Assembly: GCA_016934265.1 (NCBI GenBank)
Contig: JAFGTF010000080.1
Span: forward strand, 1 to 64,000
From: Spirochaetota bacterium
Lineage (GTDB): Bacteria; Spirochaetota; B62-G9; DRHN01
DNA: 64,000 nucleotides
Direction of reading: 5' to 3'
Made by a program: the position numbers and the translations under genes. The notes beneath the pieces are model-generated. The model saw nothing but the letters and a program-made list of their open reading frames with translations. It did not search any database and was not told the origin of the DNA. Shown piece by piece: positions 29,356-52,501 of this stretch. Position 1 is the first letter of the stretch; each line of letters begins with the position of its first letter.

Positions 29356-30384
29356 CTACCCGCGGTTTCGACGTAGAAAAGATGCGGTTTCCATCCGATC
29401 CCCAGCGGAAAACCTCTCCGTTTTGCGGGAACCCTCGGTTTTTGTCAAATACAATTTTACTTCCGTCATGTCCGGCAGCGCCGGGATGACGCCCCGCTTC
29501 CCTATCACGAGCTCCGCCACGGCGGACGCAAGGAGCCCGTACGGCTCGATATCGCCCACCCCGCCCCCGGAAGATAAAAGAGAGACACAGACGGCCGCGC
29601 CGTACGAATCCCCCGCTCCGGTCGTATCGATCACCGGAACATCGAGGGGGCCGAACCACATGCCGTCCCCTTCGCTGCTCAAGAGGATCGAGCCTTCATG
29701 TCCAAGCGTCAATGCAACCAGTTTGATCCGGGGATACTCCTCGAAGATTCCAAACAGCATATCCGTGCTGCGAGGGTCCCCCCAAAGGAACCGCCATTCC
29801 TCTATATTGATCTTCAGCACCGACACGGAGGCAAGCATGCGCAACACCTCCTCCCTCAGCCGTTTTTCCGAAGGCCACAGACCGTACCGAAGGTTCGGAT
29901 CGAACACGATGTCCAGGCCGCATGATCGGGCAGTTTCCGCTATCCCGTATGTCGCGCCGCGTATCGGTTCATCCGTCAGACTGATGGAGCTGAAGTATAG
30001 GATCTTCCCCTCCCGTATGAACTCCCCCTCTATCTCCTCGGGCTTCAGATTGATGCTTGCGCTGCCCTCTCGAAAGAAACAGTAGTCCGGCACCCTGTTC
30101 GGATCGAGGCTTATGAAGGCGATACCCGTTTTCCTGCCGGGGTCTTTGAACAGATGCGTGGCGTCGATTCCCATCATCTCGATATGTGCACGGAGATAGT
30201 CGCCGAACGGGTCGTTTCCCACCTTCCCGATAAAGGCCGGGGCGTATCCGAGCTTCTTCACCGCAGCCGCCACATTGGCAGCGGATCCCCCGGCGCTCCG
30301 TATAAACCTCGTGACGCTCCCGAGGTCCCCCGGCTCCTCGGCAATGAAATCAATCATCAGCTCTCCGAGACACAGCACGTCCAT
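29356..30384 (-). CDS. PfkB-family carbohydrate kinase
   Basis: 342 residues from ATG 30384 (AGGGGGAG upstream). Ribokinase-fold signatures: CLGELMIDF at the start, RSAGGSAANVAAAVKKLG (PfkB signature 1), GKVGNDPFGDYL, LGHEGSILL, and DTTGAGDSYGAAV (signature 2 with the catalytic Asp and anion-hole GAGD). Fructokinase, 2-keto-3-deoxygluconate kinase and 5-dehydro-2-deoxygluconate kinase share this form. It is the last gene of a probable four-gene unit (glycyl radical enzyme, E1 alpha, E1 beta, kinase), 11 nt after E1 beta, implying a sugar-type substrate for the pathway. Confidence 0.93.
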   Translation of the reverse strand: MDVLCLGELMIDFIAEEPGDLGSVTRFIRSAGGSAANVAAAVKKLGYAPAFIGKVGNDPFGDYLRAHIEMMGIDATHLFKDPGRKTGIAFISLDPNRVPDYCFFREGSASINLKPEEIEGEFIREGKILYFSSISLTDEPIRGATYGIAETARSCGLDIVFDPNLRYGLWPSEKRLREEVLRMLASVSVLKINIEEWRFLWGDPRSTDMLFGIFEEYPRIKLVALTLGHEGSILLSSEGDGMWFGPLDVPVIDTTGAGDSYGAAVCVSLLSSGGGVGDIEPYGLLASAVAELVIGKRGVIPALPDMTEVKLYLTKTEGSRKTERFSAGDRMETASFLRRNRG

Positions 30385-30395
30385 CACCGCTCCCC

Positions 30396-31385
30396 CTATT
30401 GCCTTCCTTTGCCGTGCCGGACGAGGCGACCCGCCTCCCGTTTGATCCGCTCGACATTCGGAACGACCATCTCTTCCATGACATTCGAGACCGGTACCGG
30501 AACATCGAGGGACGCTATCCTCAACGGGGCTTCTTTCAGCTTTCCGAACAGCTCGCGGTTGACCGCATCTGTTACCGTAAGCCCCCATCCCCCGGTATAC
30601 GGGTTCTCCTCCACCGTTACAAGCCGGCCCGTTTTTTCCACCGATTCCAGAATGAGCTCGAGATCGAGCGGCTTCACTGTCCGCACATCGATCACCTCCA
30701 GGCTGATCCCCTCCTCTAAAAGCTCCTGCGCGGCACGCATCGCCTTGTGGAGCATCAGCCCGCACGAAACAAGGGTGGCGTCTTTCCCCTCCTGCCGGAC
30801 CGCTCCTTTTCCGAGAGGAAGCGCCCGTCCGTCGGGCTCCATCTCCCCCTGTAGCGCGTAGAGGAGCTTGTGCTCCAGGAACAACACCGCCCCGTCATAG
30901 CGGATCGATCCGAGTAAAAGCCCGTAGGCGTCTTTCGGAGTGGACGGCTCCACCACGGTAAGGCCGGGCACGTTCATGAACCAGGCCTCCACGCACTGGC
31001 TTTGCTGCGGCCCGTCCCCCTTGCCGGTGCCGAAATTTGCCCTGATCGTAAGAGGCATTTTTAGCTGGCCCTGCGAGAGCCACGGCATCTTCGCCGCATT
31101 GTTGATCACCTGGTCCATGCAGGTCGTGATGAAGTCGACATACATGATCTCCACCACCGGCCGGAGACCGGAAATCGCCGCGCCAACCCCTATCCCGAGT
31201 ATGCCCGTTTCGTCTAAGGGACTGTCCACCACGCGCCTCTCCCCGAACTGCCTGATCAGCCCTTTGGTAACGTTGAAAATACCCCCATAATAGCCGATAT
31301 CCTCCCCGATGAGGAAAACCGTTTCATCTCGCGTCATCTCGTCGCGCAATGCGAGCCTCAGTGCCCCGCTTATCGTCGTCTTCAT
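30396..31385 (-). CDS. 2-oxoacid dehydrogenase E1 component, beta subunit
   Basis: 329 residues. Family landmarks: MTRDETVFLIGEDIGYYGG, DSPLDETGILGIGVGAAISG (the Glu that activates thiamine diphosphate), RANFGTGKGDGPQQSQCVEA, and ATLVSCGLMLHKAMRAAQEL plus EVIDVRTVKPLD in the transketolase C-terminal domain. Pairs with the alpha subunit (4-nt overlap) to decarboxylate a 2-oxoacid or acetoin and pass an acyl group to a lipoyl arm. No E2 acyltransferase or E3 gene is adjacent. A lone lipoyl-domain gene lies at 44539-44775. Confidence 0.93.
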   Translation of the reverse strand: MKTTISGALRLALRDEMTRDETVFLIGEDIGYYGGIFNVTKGLIRQFGERRVVDSPLDETGILGIGVGAAISGLRPVVEIMYVDFITTCMDQVINNAAKMPWLSQGQLKMPLTIRANFGTGKGDGPQQSQCVEAWFMNVPGLTVVEPSTPKDAYGLLLGSIRYDGAVLFLEHKLLYALQGEMEPDGRALPLGKGAVRQEGKDATLVSCGLMLHKAMRAAQELLEEGISLEVIDVRTVKPLDLELILESVEKTGRLVTVEENPYTGGWGLTVTDAVNRELFGKLKEAPLRIASLDVPVPVSNVMEEMVVPNVERIKREAGRLVRHGKGRQ

Positions 31386-32377
31386 ACGTTCTTCTCTCGT
31401 CCTCCGTTATCCGCATAGAGGTGCGTGTACATGTCCACCTTGTCCGCTGAGAGCTCGGGCGCGGCGAACGCATACTCCATCCCCTCCTTCACCTCCCGTT
31501 CAACCTCCCGCTCGATTCTGCGGAGCGCTTTTTCATCGACCTTCTTTCCGGACAACAGAAACCGCCGGTATATGACAAGCGGGTCTTTCGCCCGCCAGGT
31601 GGACAGCTCCTCGGCCGGCCTGCCGTCATCGAAATCGTGGCTTTCCGAGTGACCGCGAAAACGGTAGGTCTTGCATTCGATCAGCGTCGGCCCACCGCCG
31701 GCCCTTGCCTTTCGCACCGCCTTGTCCACGGCCTCCACGACCCCGCACACGTCCTGCCCGTCGACACAGACTCCTTCCATTCCATACCCCGCCGCGCGTA
31801 TGTAGATGTCCGGCGTCTTCATCTGGAACCGCAGCGGCGTGGATAGAGCGTACGCGTTGTTGTTGCATACCAAAACGAGGGGCAGGTTCATCGTCGACGA
31901 GCAGTTCATTGCCGAATGGAAGGACCCGGTACTCGAAGCCCCGTCCCCGAAGAACGCGAGCACCACCCTGTCGGATTCGGTGTACTTCAGTGAAAACGCT
32001 ACACCGAGCGCCACCGGTAGGTTGCTTCCCACTATGTAGGTGCCGAGGATTATTCCCTTCGAGATGTCGCCCGAGTGGTGTGCGGAAAACCTGCCGCCCG
32101 ACATCGACTCGGGCTTCTTGAGCGCATCGAGCACGTGCTGCCTGACGGACATCCCCCTCGTGAGCATGGCTCCAAGCTCCCTGAGGGCCGGGGATACGAA
32201 GTCCCCTTCCGAGAGGCAGAACGAAGCGCCGACGGTCACCGCCTCCTGTCCGATGCCGGTCATTGGTTTGTACGGGGACTTCTTTTCCCTGTATAGGTCG
32301 GAGAGGACCTCCTCCGTATGCCGCGTGAGGTACAGGCACCGGTAAAGCCTCTTTTGGTCTTCGATAGACATTCGCAT
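31382..32377 (-). CDS. 2-oxoacid dehydrogenase E1 component, alpha subunit
   Basis: 331 residues. The thiamine-diphosphate motif is intact: FFGDGASSTGSFHSAMN ... VCNNNAYALSTP (GDG-x(n)-NN). Other markers are GIGQEAVTVGASFCL, SAHHSGDISKGIILGTYIVG and the phosphorylation-loop-like YRFRGHSESHDFDDGR. The subtype (pyruvate, branched-chain, acetoin) cannot be fixed by eye. Start ATG 32377 is used, and ATG 32371 is possible. It lies 124 nt downstream of the glycyl radical enzyme gene and overlaps the beta subunit. Confidence 0.92.
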   Translation of the reverse strand: MRMSIEDQKRLYRCLYLTRHTEEVLSDLYREKKSPYKPMTGIGQEAVTVGASFCLSEGDFVSPALRELGAMLTRGMSVRQHVLDALKKPESMSGGRFSAHHSGDISKGIILGTYIVGSNLPVALGVAFSLKYTESDRVVLAFFGDGASSTGSFHSAMNCSSTMNLPLVLVCNNNAYALSTPLRFQMKTPDIYIRAAGYGMEGVCVDGQDVCGVVEAVDKAVRKARAGGGPTLIECKTYRFRGHSESHDFDDGRPAEELSTWRAKDPLVIYRRFLLSGKKVDEKALRRIEREVEREVKEGMEYAFAAPELSADKVDMYTHLYADNGGREKNV

Positions 32378-32501: not shown

Positions 32502-34955
32502 TCAGAATCCCTGGTGCACGGTGCGCTGGATGACCTGGTCCTGGACTTCTTCGCTGAGGTTGACGAAGATGGCGCTGTATCCCGCCACTCGGACCACGAG
32601 ACCGCGGTACTCCAAGGGTTTCGCCTGGGCTTTCAGCAGCTTCTCTTTCGTAATGACGTTGAACTGCACGTGCATCCCGCCGAGGTCGAAGTACGCCAGA
32701 AAATAGTCGACGAACTTCGAGAGGCTCTCTTCGGTCTCGAGCGCGGACGGTGAGAAGGTCTGGTTGAATATCATGCCCTTGCCGAAACGCACGAAATCGA
32801 CCTTAGCGACCGAGGCGGCGCTCGCGGTCGGTCCGTTCATATCCGTACCCGAATAGGGCGATATCCCTCCTGCAAGAGGGGTTTTCGCCCGTCGTCCGTC
32901 GGGGGTCGCACCCACCTCTTTACCCATCCCGACATGCGCCGTCACCGCGGTCAGTCCCGGTCTGAATCGACCGCCCCGGCCGTTCGTGTACCGCTCCGCC
33001 TCATCCGCAAACGATTCAACCACCCTCTTCACGATGCCGTCCACGTAATCGTCGTTGTTGCCGTATTTCGGGACCTTCTCACGGAGCATGGCCTGCAGGG
33101 TTTCATACCCGACGAAATCGGCGTTTAGGGCGGCCTGAAGCTTGAAAGCCTCGACGCTCTTGTCCTCGAACACCAATTTTTTGATCGCTGCAAGCGAGTT
33201 GCCGGTGTTGGCGCCCCCGACCGCAGTCGGGCCGGTGAAATTATATCTCGCCCCGCCTGCGGCCACCTCTCTTGCTGATTCGATACAGCCGGGAACGAGC
33301 ACCGAGACTATGGGGCTCGGCACGAGGTCGGCGTGAACTCTGTCGATCGCATTGTCTTCGACTGCAAGATGTTCGAAGAAATAAGCCATCTGCTTTTTGA
33401 ATGCTGAAAAAAGCGATTCGAACGAATCGAAATCCGAAAGGCTGCCGAGTGGCAGCCCGTTCTGTTCTCCTGTCAGCCGGCAGACTCCGTTGTTGATCGT
33501 ATACTCCAGCACCTTGGCGAGATTGAAATAGCCGCCGTTTTCCCGCCCCCAGCCGCCCACGACGTTAAGCTCCACGCAGCCGACCGGCGCGTACCGGCGC
33601 GCCTCCCGTACGGGGATGCCGACGTTCTGTACCGCCGGGATGCACACCCCGTCGTTCATGAGCTGCGGCATTCCGGTACCCAATCGTATGACCTCTGCGG
33701 TCCGCATGAGAAACGCGCGCGGGGCCTTCTTAGAAACCCTCACAGTGAAGTTCGGCTGTGCAAGCCCCACATGCTCCTGGGCGTTCAGGCAGAGGAAAGA
33801 AAGCTCGTTCGTCGCGTCGTTTCCCTCGCCGTCCACCCCTCCGACAGTGACATTCTGTCCCATCGGAAACCCGCCCGTTATCCTCGCGGCTTCCGTTTTG
33901 TATAAAAGCAGCGGCTCAGAGAATTTCAGCCAGAAACAGTCCAGAAGCTCCTGTGCCCGCTCCCTCGTCAGAACACCCGAAGCGATGTCTTTCCGATAGT
34001 AGGGTAAAAGGTACTGGTCGATCCTCCCCGGACTGTAGGAGCTTCCGTTATTGTCGATCTGAACGATAATCTGAACGAACCAAAGCGATTGCAGGCTCTC
34101 ATGGAAGTTTCTCGCGGGTTTCGCCGGGACCTGACGGCAGATCTCCGCGATCCGGAAAAGCTCCTCCTTCCTCTTTTCGTCATGCTCGCTTTGCGCACTG
34201 GATTCCGCGAGCTCGGCGTACCGTTTTGCAAAGACTATCGCCGCATCGCACGAGACCATGCAGCTTCGGTAAAAGAGGGCCTTCTCCACGTAATCGGGTT
34301 TTTCCGGGTCGAGCGCGTCGAGCGCCTGCAAGACCTCGCGTTTGATTCCCTCGAACCCGATCCGGATGACTTTCTCGTAGTCTAAGAGCACGTGGCCGAG
34401 CGCGGTTTCCTCGTGCGCGGTGACCGAAAACACCTTCGCCTTCATACGGTGATTCAACGTCTCTTCCGGAAGCGTATTGAACAGGACCCGGCGTATCCCC
34501 TTATCTTTCCAGTAGGGGAATATGCCTTTCAGGTCCTCTTTTACCTTATCGGAGACATAGAAGGAGTCGACCGATCTGGTAGGGAGAAGGTCGAGCTCCT
34601 CTTCGAGCCATCCTGCGTCGAACTCGGGAAACACGGGAGCGCTCTTAGGCATGCTCGCGTGATGCCCCACGATCAGCTCGGAATCGGATATGAACACATG
34701 GATCCGGCCGAGCAGCATGTGCAGGGTCTTGGCCCGCTTCATCAGCGGGGGCTCATGTGCGAAGGCCTTGTAGGCTTCGGTGACTATGGTCGCCCGCTCG
34801 CTGCAGAGCTGCCGTTTCGAAGAGAGGAACCGGTCTTTCAGGAATTTTATACGTTCGGATGCAGGCTCCCGGTACGGGCCCATATCCGCCCAGTCCCCTG
34901 CACGATGCACGTAATCCCCGGCACGGTTTTTATTTCTTACGTAGGCGTCTATCAT
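32502..34955 (-). CDS. Glycyl radical enzyme of the PFL/diol-dehydratase superfamily, subtype unassigned
   Basis: 817 residues from ATG 34955 (AAGGTGG upstream), the normal length for GREs. Catalytic elements: Cys460 in YAPVGCVELN, with Glu two residues on (the thiyl Cys and general base of eliminases), and the radical loop RVAGYSAIF with Gly at about residue 792. GCVE plus FNLAKVLEYTINNG resembles glycerol/propanediol dehydratase and choline lyase groups more than pyruvate formate-lyase. However, GCVEL lacks the following Pro typical of glycerol and choline members. No radical-SAM activase is present in the window, although GREs require one. First gene of a unit with E1 alpha/beta and a PfkB kinase; its strong promoter diverges from a Gfo/Idh gene. 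The substrate may be a sugar-derived diol or deoxy compound. Confidence 0.9.
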   Translation of the reverse strand: MIDAYVRNKNRAGDYVHRAGDWADMGPYREPASERIKFLKDRFLSSKRQLCSERATIVTEAYKAFAHEPPLMKRAKTLHMLLGRIHVFISDSELIVGHHASMPKSAPVFPEFDAGWLEEELDLLPTRSVDSFYVSDKVKEDLKGIFPYWKDKGIRRVLFNTLPEETLNHRMKAKVFSVTAHEETALGHVLLDYEKVIRIGFEGIKREVLQALDALDPEKPDYVEKALFYRSCMVSCDAAIVFAKRYAELAESSAQSEHDEKRKEELFRIAEICRQVPAKPARNFHESLQSLWFVQIIVQIDNNGSSYSPGRIDQYLLPYYRKDIASGVLTRERAQELLDCFWLKFSEPLLLYKTEAARITGGFPMGQNVTVGGVDGEGNDATNELSFLCLNAQEHVGLAQPNFTVRVSKKAPRAFLMRTAEVIRLGTGMPQLMNDGVCIPAVQNVGIPVREARRYAPVGCVELNVVGGWGRENGGYFNLAKVLEYTINNGVCRLTGEQNGLPLGSLSDFDSFESLFSAFKKQMAYFFEHLAVEDNAIDRVHADLVPSPIVSVLVPGCIESAREVAAGGARYNFTGPTAVGGANTGNSLAAIKKLVFEDKSVEAFKLQAALNADFVGYETLQAMLREKVPKYGNNDDYVDGIVKRVVESFADEAERYTNGRGGRFRPGLTAVTAHVGMGKEVGATPDGRRAKTPLAGGISPYSGTDMNGPTASAASVAKVDFVRFGKGMIFNQTFSPSALETEESLSKFVDYFLAYFDLGGMHVQFNVITKEKLLKAQAKPLEYRGLVVRVAGYSAIFVNLSEEVQDQVIQRTVHQGF

Positions 34956-35065
34956 GATCCACCTTGATCCGCGGCGATCTATTTTTGGCACTCGACCGCC
35001 CGTCATACCCGGGCCGCGGAATAAAGCCGCAGTACGGCCTCAAGACAGGCACATGCCGTAAAAGC

Positions 35066-35094
35066 AATATAGGGCGGGTGGCGTGAAATGTCAA
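35066..35094 (-). promoter_or_regulatory. Sigma-70 promoter of the glycyl radical enzyme unit
   Basis: Minus strand TTGACA (35094-35089), 17 bp spacer, TATATT (35071-35066). The leader of about 100 nt runs to ATG 34955. The boxes are near perfect. Confidence 0.75.
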
Positions 35095-35396: not shown

Positions 35397-35454
35397 TTGA
35401 AACGGCGGAAATATTATGTACACTTATCGAATAAGTTACCGTACATGCGGTAAC
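35397..35454 (+). promoter_or_regulatory. Promoter with overlapping palindromic operators upstream of the Gfo/Idh gene
   Basis: TTGAAA (35397-35402), 16 bp, TACACT (35419-35424) form a promoter. Directly over and after the predicted start lie two palindromes: CTTAT-CGA-ATAAG (35423-35435) and GTTACCG-TACATG-CGGTAAC (35435-35454). The position suits a repressor. The GTTACCG half-site resembles LacI/GntR-type gluconate operators. The regulator gene is not in the window. Confidence 0.6.
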
Positions 35455-35484
35455 TCACCTCGAAAAGGAAAGGAAGCGAAGCGC

Positions 35485-36591
35485 ATGCCTGTAAGGATCG
35501 GTATCATCGGATGCGGTGCCATCACGCGCCGTGCATTTTTACCCGGATTTGCACAACCGGGGACTGAGGAGGCGAAAAAGGCCAATCCGTACTACGACCA
35601 CGGCGGATGTAAAAACGCCGAAGTGGTTGCTCTTTCGGACGTGGACGTCGAGAAAGCAAAAGAACTGGCCGCCGAATTCCACGTTCCCAAAACCTACGAC
35701 GACTGGCACGATCTTCTGGCCGACAGCCAGATCGATGCCGTGTGCATCAACACCCCGAACCATCTGCACGCCGAAATGACGGTCGCGGCCGCAAAGGCGA
35801 AGAAGCACGTCATGGTCGAGAAGCCGATGGCCGGCACGGTCCGTGAAGCGGACATGATGGTCGATGCGGCGAAAAAAAACGGCGTTTTTCTCATGGTCGA
35901 CCAGACGCAGCGCTTCTGGCCGATGCACGAAGTCGCCATGGATATCGTACGTTCCGGCCTCATCGGGCGCGTGATATCGGTGCGGGGCAAGATGGCGCAC
36001 GGAGGGCCCCGGTTCTGGAGCCCGGCCAGCACCTGGTTCGGCAGGAAACAGGAGGGCATTCACGGCGCGATGTTCGATATCGGCATCCACAAGCTCGACC
36101 TGATACGGTATATGCTGGATTCGCCGATCTCCGAGGTCGCCTGTTTTACAACCACCTTCTCGGAGGGGATCGATGTCGAGGACAACGCGGTAGCGATCTT
36201 CCGGACGAAGAACGGCGTCATGGGCGTGCTGGAGGCGAGCTGGACCTGCAACCCCAGGGAGAACACCACATACGTGTACGGGGAGCTGGGCAACCTGAAG
36301 CTCGGTCATACGAAAGAGGAGCCCATATTCGTCGAGATAGCGGTTCCAGACGCCGCCCAGAACCGGGACATCCCGCCCGGAACCCTCACCGCCGGGAAAT
36401 ACGTCCCTGTAATCCCGACGCGAAGCAAGTTCGGCGGGCCGTGGCAGCATTTCGTGGACTCCGTAACGTCCGGGACTCAACCGTCTCCCTCCGGTGAGGA
36501 AGGCCGCGCCAGCCTCGAAGTGATACTTGCGGCTTTTCGCTCCTCTTCGGAAGGGCGGGCCGTCTCGCTGCCCCTTTCCCGAAAGGGGTGA
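35485..36591 (+). CDS. Gfo/Idh/MocA-family oxidoreductase
   Basis: 368 residues from ATG 35485 (AAGGAAAGGAAG upstream). The N-terminal Rossmann motif is RIGIIGCGAITRRAFLP, followed by DAVCINTPNHLHAEMTVAA and the catalytic-site Lys in VMVEKPMAGTV. The C-terminal alpha/beta domain has GKMAHGGPRFW, FDIGIHKLDLIRYML (Asp and His of the active site) and VMGVLEASWT. An N-terminal insertion (GTEEAKKANPYYDHGGCKN) is longer than usual. NAD(P)-dependent oxidation or reduction of a sugar, cyclitol or glycoside is expected. It is followed at 62 nt by a TIM-barrel isomerase, a common pair in inositol or keto-sugar catabolism. Confidence 0.93.
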   Translation: MPVRIGIIGCGAITRRAFLPGFAQPGTEEAKKANPYYDHGGCKNAEVVALSDVDVEKAKELAAEFHVPKTYDDWHDLLADSQIDAVCINTPNHLHAEMTVAAAKAKKHVMVEKPMAGTVREADMMVDAAKKNGVFLMVDQTQRFWPMHEVAMDIVRSGLIGRVISVRGKMAHGGPRFWSPASTWFGRKQEGIHGAMFDIGIHKLDLIRYMLDSPISEVACFTTTFSEGIDVEDNAVAIFRTKNGVMGVLEASWTCNPRENTTYVYGELGNLKLGHTKEEPIFVEIAVPDAAQNRDIPPGTLTAGKYVPVIPTRSKFGGPWQHFVDSVTSGTQPSPSGEEGRASLEVILAAFRSSSEGRAVSLPLSRKG

Positions 36592-36653
36592 TACACCGGG
36601 CCGCGCGATATACGATATTCGCGGCGTACTATATAGGTGAAGGAAGGAAACTA

Positions 36654-37508
36654 ATGGAGAACAAGATAGGACTGAATCCTCTTACGATACGGCAGTCGCA
36701 GGGACTGGAGTCGAAAGTGCGAATAGCGGCCCGTGCAGGCTACGACGGAGTCGGGCTTCGCGGCGACGAGATAGAGACGTACATCGAGGAAGGCCATACA
36801 ACTTCGGACATCGTAGACCTTCTTCGTGAAACGGGCCTTGGTATCACCGATGTGGGGTCGGTCGCCGGGTGGCAGTTCACCGATCACCCCCCGCTCGTCT
36901 GCCAGATCAAAACGAGCGGGCTGGTGGACCCGGCCGCACTTGATCGGAGGGTGGACCGTTTTTTCAGGCTGGTGTCCGAAGCCGGAGGAGAGATTGTACC
37001 CGCCGTATCTGCGATAGAAGAGGAAGGCGACTTTGATCGCGGTGTCGAGGACTTCAAAAGCCTCTGCAGGCGGGCTGCGGAGCACGGGCTCAAGATCGCG
37101 TTCGAATTCGTCGGTTTCGGCAGACAGATGTCCAACCTCCGGATCGCCAACCGGCTGATCGCCGAGGCCGGCCAGGAAAACGGGGGGCTTCTGTTAGATA
37201 CATTCCACTTTCACCGGGGCGGATGCTCCATCGACGACCTGCTCGAAACACCGGCGGATCGTATCTTCCTCGTCCATCTCAACGACGTCATGGACAAGCC
37301 GGTAGATACGATCCGAGACCAGGACCGGCTGTACCCGGGCCTCGGCGTTTTAGACCTCCCCCGCATACTGGGCGCCCTACGGTCCATCGGCTACGAGGGA
37401 TTCTATTCGCTCGAGATATTCAACGAAGACTACTGGAAACGCGATCCACTCGAGGTTGCGACCACGGCACGAACGTATGCAAAAGAGGTCTTGCGCGCCG
37501 TGCCCTGA
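36654..37508 (+). CDS. Sugar phosphate isomerase/epimerase-like TIM barrel (xylose-isomerase-like)
   Basis: 284 residues from ATG 36654 (AAGGAAGGAAA upstream). AP-endonuclease-2/IolE/IolI-type signature residues occur in barrel order: KIGLNPLTIRQ, ARAGYDGVGLRGDEIE, GLKIAFEFVGF (metal Glu), LLLDTFHFHRGG (metal Asp and His), FLVHLNDVMDKP (His), and GFYSLEIFNEDYW (metal Glu). Members isomerise or epimerise keto-sugars or dehydrate 2-keto-inositol. With the upstream dehydrogenase it forms a two-gene unit. The exact reaction is unknown. Confidence 0.92.
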   Translation: MENKIGLNPLTIRQSQGLESKVRIAARAGYDGVGLRGDEIETYIEEGHTTSDIVDLLRETGLGITDVGSVAGWQFTDHPPLVCQIKTSGLVDPAALDRRVDRFFRLVSEAGGEIVPAVSAIEEEGDFDRGVEDFKSLCRRAAEHGLKIAFEFVGFGRQMSNLRIANRLIAEAGQENGGLLLDTFHFHRGGCSIDDLLETPADRIFLVHLNDVMDKPVDTIRDQDRLYPGLGVLDLPRILGALRSIGYEGFYSLEIFNEDYWKRDPLEVATTARTYAKEVLRAVP

Positions 37509-51569: not shown

Positions 51570-52501
51570 ATGATAGTGTCCGCGAGCAGAAGAACCGACA
51601 TCCCCGCGTTTTATTCGAAATGGCTTATTAAAAGGCTCGAGGAGGGGTATGTGCTCGTCCGAAACCCCATAAATCCCCGCCTCATCAGCAGGATCCCGCT
51701 GCTGCCGGATGCCGCCGAGTTCATCGTCTTCTGGACAAAGAACCCCGCACCCATGCTGCCCTGGCTCGACCGGATCGACCGTTTCTCGATCCCCTACTAT
51801 TTCCTATTCACGGTCACGCCGTACCCGAAGGAGCTTGAGCGAAATCTTCCCGAAAAGCACGCGATCGTCGAGTCCTTTCGCCTGCTATCGGAGAGAATAG
51901 GACAAAAAAAACAATCTGGCGGTACGATCCTATCATACTCTCCGAGAGCTTCGATGCGGTATATCATAAAACCCGCTTCGAGAACCTCTGCGCCCGTTTC
52001 GAGGGCGCTACCGAGCGCTCCATTATAAGCTACCTGGACATGTACAAGAAATGCGAGCGGCGCCTTTTGGGGCTCGGGATCCGTCAGCCGGGGGTCCGGG
52101 AGAAAACCGACATCGCCGGGGCTTTGCGGCGCATTGCCGCAAAGTACGGTATCGGCGTACAGTCGTGCGCCGAGGATTTCGATCAATCCGACGCAGGCGT
52201 TGAGAACGGTAAATGCGTCGACGACGGCCTGATATCCGATATCGTCGGGAAACCGGTATCCGTTTGCCGTGACCGTACTCAAAGAAAGCGGTGCAACTGC
52301 GTGGAAAGTGTCGATATAGGCTCATACGACACCTGCACCGGCGGGTGTCTCTACTGTTATGCGAACAGCGATCCCGTACGCTCCAGGCGAAACAACGCCG
52401 CTCACGATCCAGCCTCCGGACTCCTTTACGGAGAAATCGGCCCTAACGACCGTATCGTCGAACGGGAGATAAGAAGCATGACGGTGGAAAAACAGGTTTG
52501 A
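51570..52501 (+). pseudogene. DUF1848 protein, frameshifted at an A8 run
   Basis: The first frame encodes MIVSASRRTDIPAFYSKW, PINPRLISRIPLLPDAAEFI and IVFWTKNPAPMLPWLDRI, the diagnostic start of DUF1848. Homology stops at the A8 run 51904-51911. The -1 frame then continues the family as WRYDPIILSESFDAVYHKTR, ISYLDMYKKCERRLLGLGI and, at the C-terminus, SVDIGSYDTCTGGCLYCYAN (Cys cluster), ending at TGA 52499-52501. Together about 310 residues, the normal length. One extra A is the simplest cause, so it may be a sequencing error, a true mutation or slippage-dependent expression. The family is of unknown function, with an Fe-S-like Cys cluster. Confidence 0.88.

Follow-up and report, generated by a model that had tools for sequence, protein, structure and literature searches.

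The gene of an oxygen-sensitive glycyl radical enzyme (GRE) at positions 32502–34955 (reverse strand) of the window analysed here, a 64,000-nucleotide stretch of a Spirochaetota MAG (G000; 3.83 Mb in 156 contigs, 92.9% complete), raises the question of how a radical is installed in an enzyme that is encoded without a linked activase. Generally, the function of a GRE is assigned via its adjacent activase, and activity tests use that pair. Both the gene and the absence of a linked activase are real, and the explanation is an ordinary one: the locus likely encodes a radical dehydratase of the sugar/polyol type, which seems to share an operon with a pair of TPP-dependent E1 genes and a PfkB-family kinase gene and would be activated in trans by one of eight ordinary activases of the genome.

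The open frame extends from 32502 to 35006 on the reverse strand; the ATG at 34955, the start used by the sequence-only reading of this DNA, is the better one, because it is preceded by a Shine-Dalgarno sequence (AAGGTGG, 34959–34965). Counted from this start, as are all residue numbers given here, the protein comprises 817 amino acids and is matched over the full length of both Pfam profiles, PFL-like and Gly_radical (PF02901 and PF01228; 726 and 104 bits). A sigma-70-like promoter (TTGACA-17-TATATT, 35066–35094, reverse strand) agrees with the consensus at 11 of 12 positions, a consensus match only; four promoter-like sites were observed in the region versus 2.2 expected in shuffled sequences. 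Cys460 (codon 33576–33578, reverse strand) lies in a GCVEL motif and corresponds to Cys433 of the Clostridium butyricum glycerol dehydratase, whereas the glycyl radical site Gly792 (codon 32580–32582, reverse strand; Gly763 of glycerol dehydratase) is part of the canonical loop RVAGYS. The protein thus combines both domains, the catalytic Cys and the fingerprint RVxG[FWY] of the PFL-like GRE superfamily; with GCVE at Cys460–Glu462 it also shows the CXE motif that is a trait of the GRE eliminases (PMC7077986). A sequence-only reading of this DNA had described the Cys460/Gly792 machinery as intact, which is borne out by an alignment of 18 sequences in which both columns are invariant; Glu462 is present, too. 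The AlphaFold2 model (pLDDT 84.7) matched best, among solved structures, the GRE 1,2-propanediol dehydratases and the B12-independent glycerol dehydratase (TM 0.92, approximately 41% identity). The gene is intact and complete, and a functional dehydratase-type eliminase is predicted as a likely part of the joint explanation given above.

The GCVEL motif had been read as a departure from the glycerol/choline-type enzymes. The motif itself is real; as a signal of something aberrant it does not hold, for E. coli PflD and a genome of the same order carry GCVEL as well, and its interpretation as a sign of new chemistry was rejected on the same ground. In a tree of 27 GREs the window GRE, on a long branch, grouped with four GREs of two genomes of the same family (G001 and G002; UFBoot 94), with a further GRE of G002 (96) and with the GRE of G003, a member of another genus in the family (88; 43% identical and not a 1:1 orthologue). 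The glycerol/propanediol dehydratases, PflD, YbiW and HypD each formed a supported clade of their own, apart from the window GRE. By its sequence, the enzyme is therefore placed in an uncharacterised, family-restricted clade near the PflD/YbiW/glycerol-dehydratase branch; clear placement in a characterised subgroup, which the sequence-only reading had named as contrary evidence, was not obtained for any of them. Indeed, none of the NCBIfam equivalog cut-offs was reached: the bit scores were 653 versus 1100 for HypD (NF043068, the second-best NCBIfam match), 562 versus 1050 for the choline lyase CutC (TIGR04394), 621 and 604 versus 1000 for the sulfopropanediol dehydratases HpfG/HpsG (NF048009, NF048011), 629 versus 1109 for PflD (NF007437) and 169 versus 994 for pyruvate formate-lyase (TIGR01255), which has a Cys-Cys pair in place of the G-C-V-E motif.

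The comparison with known enzymes is consistent with this position. Closest in sequence and fold are the glycerol dehydratase (PDB 1r8w) and the 1,2-propanediol dehydratases (5i2g, 9rco). Cys433, Glu435, Gly763, His164 and Ser282 of glycerol dehydratase are retained, whereas four pocket positions differ (His281 to Ser, Tyr339 to Gly, Asp447 to Asn, Tyr640 to Thr); in contrast to these systems, the window GRE stands outside their clade and has no adjacent activase. PflD shares with it, besides GCVEL, the residues Ser/Ser/Gly at pocket positions 281, 282 and 339 (glycerol dehydratase numbering), but keeps Asp447 and Tyr640, and the clades of the two are separate and well supported. HypD has the CXE motif in common with the window GRE, but its Asp (Asp278; position 281 of the pocket) is a Ser in the latter. 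The G001/G002 enzymes (47–48% identity) belong to the same clade and reveal the same pattern at the equivalents of His164, Ser282, Gly339 and Asn447; in contrast to the window GRE, they are encoded with an activase adjacent or one GRE away, and no E1 pair lies alongside. An adjacent activase in a conserved neighbourhood, held by the sequence-only reading to be contrary evidence, is accordingly a feature of the sister clade, not of the source genome.

Downstream of the GRE gene, on the same strand, an E1 alpha-like subunit of a TPP-dependent dehydrogenase (31382–32377; PF00676, 225 bits) follows after a gap of 124 bp as a probable operon partner; it overlaps by 4 bp with an E1 beta-like subunit (30396–31385, reverse strand; PF02779 and PF02780; NF006667, 324 bits versus a cut-off of 321), which is followed by an IolC/fructokinase-like PfkB-family sugar kinase (29356–30387, reverse strand, start approximate; PF00294, 172 bits; matches to PDB sugar kinases; TIGR04382, 178 bits, below the cut-off of 300). 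On the forward strand, the divergent neighbours are a Gfo/Idh/MocA dehydrogenase (35416–36591; PF01408 and PF22725) and a xylose-isomerase-like TIM barrel protein (36588–37508; PF01261). No E2 gene was found near the E1 pair; E2 genes are present on other contigs only. Despite the apparent operon, a conserved GRE-E1-PfkB arrangement was not found in any relative, and the family has many E1 beta homologues; in consequence, the linkage of E1 and GRE carries little functional weight. E1-beta-like TPP enzymes gave 7–15 matches per genome in G001, G003 and G004, an apparent expansion in this family. Bearing on the substrate are the neighbours of the other clade members, i.e. FGGY kinases, a DeoC-type aldolase, an SDR, an MDR alcohol dehydrogenase and sugar-type ABC transporters, and the activities of E. 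coli PflD and YbiW, which are 1,5-anhydromannitol-6-phosphate and 1,5-anhydroglucitol-6-phosphate dehydratases, respectively (PMC12441222). Since the clade neighbours are mostly sugar/polyol genes and PflD/YbiW dehydrate anhydrohexitol phosphates, a sugar- or polyol-like substrate and a dehydration chemistry are likely for the window GRE; a sugar-phosphate chemistry of the PflD/YbiW kind would also fit its kinase neighbour.

The absence of a radical-SAM activase near the GRE, as stated by the sequence-only reading, was confirmed for the whole contig: no open reading frame of the window or of the remaining contig (to 76.3 kb, i.e. 12 kb beyond the window) matched the activase HMMs or TIGR02494/TIGR02493, although the contig reaches more than 32 kb to either side of the gene. 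Two proteins of the contig with a CX3CX2C motif, a DUF1848 protein and, outside the window, a Radical_SAM_N2 protein, were rejected as GRE activases, as they belong to unrelated families. The DUF1848 protein (approximately 51839–52498, forward strand) bears the motif near its C-terminus; its frame spans profile positions 105–262 only, so that an interruption or frameshift further upstream in the gene is possible.

The genome-wide search for activases and their pairing, which had been proposed as a check, revealed 12 PFL-like GREs and eight ferredoxin-type activases (TIGR02494), all of the latter on contigs other than that of the window; TIGR02493 added no further GRE activase, its additional matches in the genome being weak and far below the cut-off (the counts rest on family profile searches). 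Four of the activases are on C98 and one each on C55, C117, C126 and C70. Seven have a GRE next to them or at most approximately 5 kb away, whereas one (C70:9151-10056) is free-standing, adjoins trpS and lies on a contig without a GRE. Conversely, the contig contains no activase for at least four GREs: the window GRE, a HypD (C87), a Gly-to-Ala homologue (C29) and a GRE on C2; the GRE on C151 is cut by the contig end and is not counted among these clear orphans. With eight standard activases elsewhere and at least four unlinked GREs, a missing neighbour activase is an ordinary condition in this genome. If each of the four orphans had a dedicated partner, three activases would have to be missing from the assembly (P approximately 0.0014, a rough figure that assumes random loss at 7.1%, while MAG losses are not random). 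As such a loss is improbable, the census favours sharing in trans as the expected solution for GREs without a linked activase. Of the two options named in the sequence-only reading, borrowing an activase encoded at another locus is supported by the eight standard activases, one of them free-standing; recourse to an unknown activase found no support.

Several GREs outside the window deserve mention in their own right. The C87 enzyme (G000:C87:10259-12619) is the true HypD of the genome (NF043068, 1250 bits versus a cut-off of 1100); it has no linked activase and is syntenic with a gap-cut HypD of G003. In the C29 paralogue (G000:C29:13339-15768; L089:9340-11769, forward strand), a GCC codon puts Ala in place of Gly (RVAAYC for RVxGY), and GCVE is changed to GCVT; the frame is intact and is flanked by the genes of a PfkB kinase and an FSA-type aldolase. 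Among 393 genomes of the phylum, the nine homologues closest to this paralogue all lack the Ala. The paralogue resembles an alanyl radical enzyme homologue and has no activase on its 23.8-kb contig; the AAREs described in PMC11528403 are all encoded near an activase. The GREs on C2 (L090) and C117 (L091) are 68% identical to each other and possess a Cys-Cys loop (ACCH) instead of GCxE; an activase lies approximately 5 kb from the C117 gene, none on the C2 contig. In a Bacillota MAG from goat omasum, four GREs lie in tandem (L070:5464-15166), and the 17 kb examined there contain no activase. Among viral contigs no relative of the window GRE was detected, and the viral fold library gave weak RNR-like matches only.

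Which of the eight activases would be the donor? The free-standing C70 activase is the single most likely one for the window GRE, and it probably serves more than one GRE. Its neighbourhood is syntenic in G003 (activase 62% and trpS 72% identical; further neighbours 45–76%, including a radical-SAM-type protein with 76% and a nitroreductase-like protein with 68%, both named by sequence inspection). The C70 activase and its G003 orthologue group together on a long stem (support 100%), and the next best match outside this pair in 393 genomes of the phylum is 48% identical; the trpS contigs of G001, G002, G005, G031 and G042 contain no activase. The orthologue was the only activase found in G003, where the GREs comprise one intact enzyme of the window clade and the gap-cut HypD fragment. 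The single contig of G003 is a scaffold with 100-N gaps and was rejected as a closed genome, so that the apparent 2-Mb distance between GRE and activase was not used as evidence; in the sequence free of gaps that surrounds each gene, spanning 19.9 kb for the GRE and 13.8 kb for the activase, neither has a partner. That the trpS-linked activase acts as a generalist for several unlinked GREs of differing function, at least the window GRE and HypD, is a tentative suggestion to which we give somewhat less than even chances.

By analogy with other GRE eliminases (PMC7077986), the ferredoxin-type radical-SAM activase, supplied from another locus, would take a hydrogen from Gly792; the radical would move on to Cys460, whose thiyl radical would abstract a hydrogen from the substrate, and Glu462 together with the His that corresponds to His164 in glycerol dehydratase would help water to leave. 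The supply of the activase from elsewhere would be the only unusual step. Within the family, G002 (C162) and G001 (C476) each have a single activase encoded with a tandem pair of GREs, and for the threonyl radical enzymes, from which the window GRE differs by its canonical Gly, a single activase encoded alongside a pair of radical enzymes is published as a precedent (PMC11528403). Against sharing counts the partner selectivity of the aminoacyl-radical activases in that study; a literature search on GRE cross-activation found nothing. It also speaks against trans activation of the window GRE that a linked activase is usual among its closest clade members (G001/G002), and that the MAG is incomplete and fragmented.

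A variant of this explanation retains the activation in trans but names a different donor, namely an activase already paired with another GRE, e.g. C98:9299-10249, which adjoins a YbiW-like GRE 42% identical to the window GRE; the C70 activase would then be the partner of HypD. This is possible but rather doubtful. In its favour, synteny between G000 and G003 is conserved around both HypD and the C70 activase, whereas the window GRE and its G003 counterpart lack a 1:1 relationship; vertical inheritance is clearer for HypD than for the window GRE, and the C70 activase may therefore belong to HypD. However, an assignment of the C70 activase as HypD activase by NCBIfam equivalog was not supported (318 versus a cut-off of 425, no better than the other activases), although HypD is still a possible client, and borrowing from a paired activase would be no simpler than borrowing from a free one. 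That a dedicated activase gene exists but was lost from the assembly is improbable: the incompleteness and fragmentation of the MAG would allow for it, but the number of orphan GREs, the low chance of losing three partners and the long activase-free flanks of the gene argue against it. Still less probable is a silent or decaying gene whose product is never activated; the missing activase, the divergent pocket and the long branch would agree with decay, but are opposed by the full-length frame, the complete set of radical residues, the good Shine-Dalgarno sequence, the promoter-like site and the confidently predicted fold. A new type of activase, unrelated to the PflA-type radical-SAM enzymes, is hardly credible, since nothing but the missing linkage would suggest it and it is countered by the abundance of standard activases and the canonical Gly loop.

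Activation of the window GRE in trans thus remains the preferred reading, and the enzyme probably acts in anaerobic sugar or polyol breakdown. The rule of pairing a GRE with its neighbouring activase fails for at least four GREs of this genome, for which the C70 activase is a concrete candidate donor. If the latter is truly a generalist, the usual linkage of one GRE with one activase would be broken in this lineage, and a route to activating the orphan GREs of uncultured anaerobes would be at hand.
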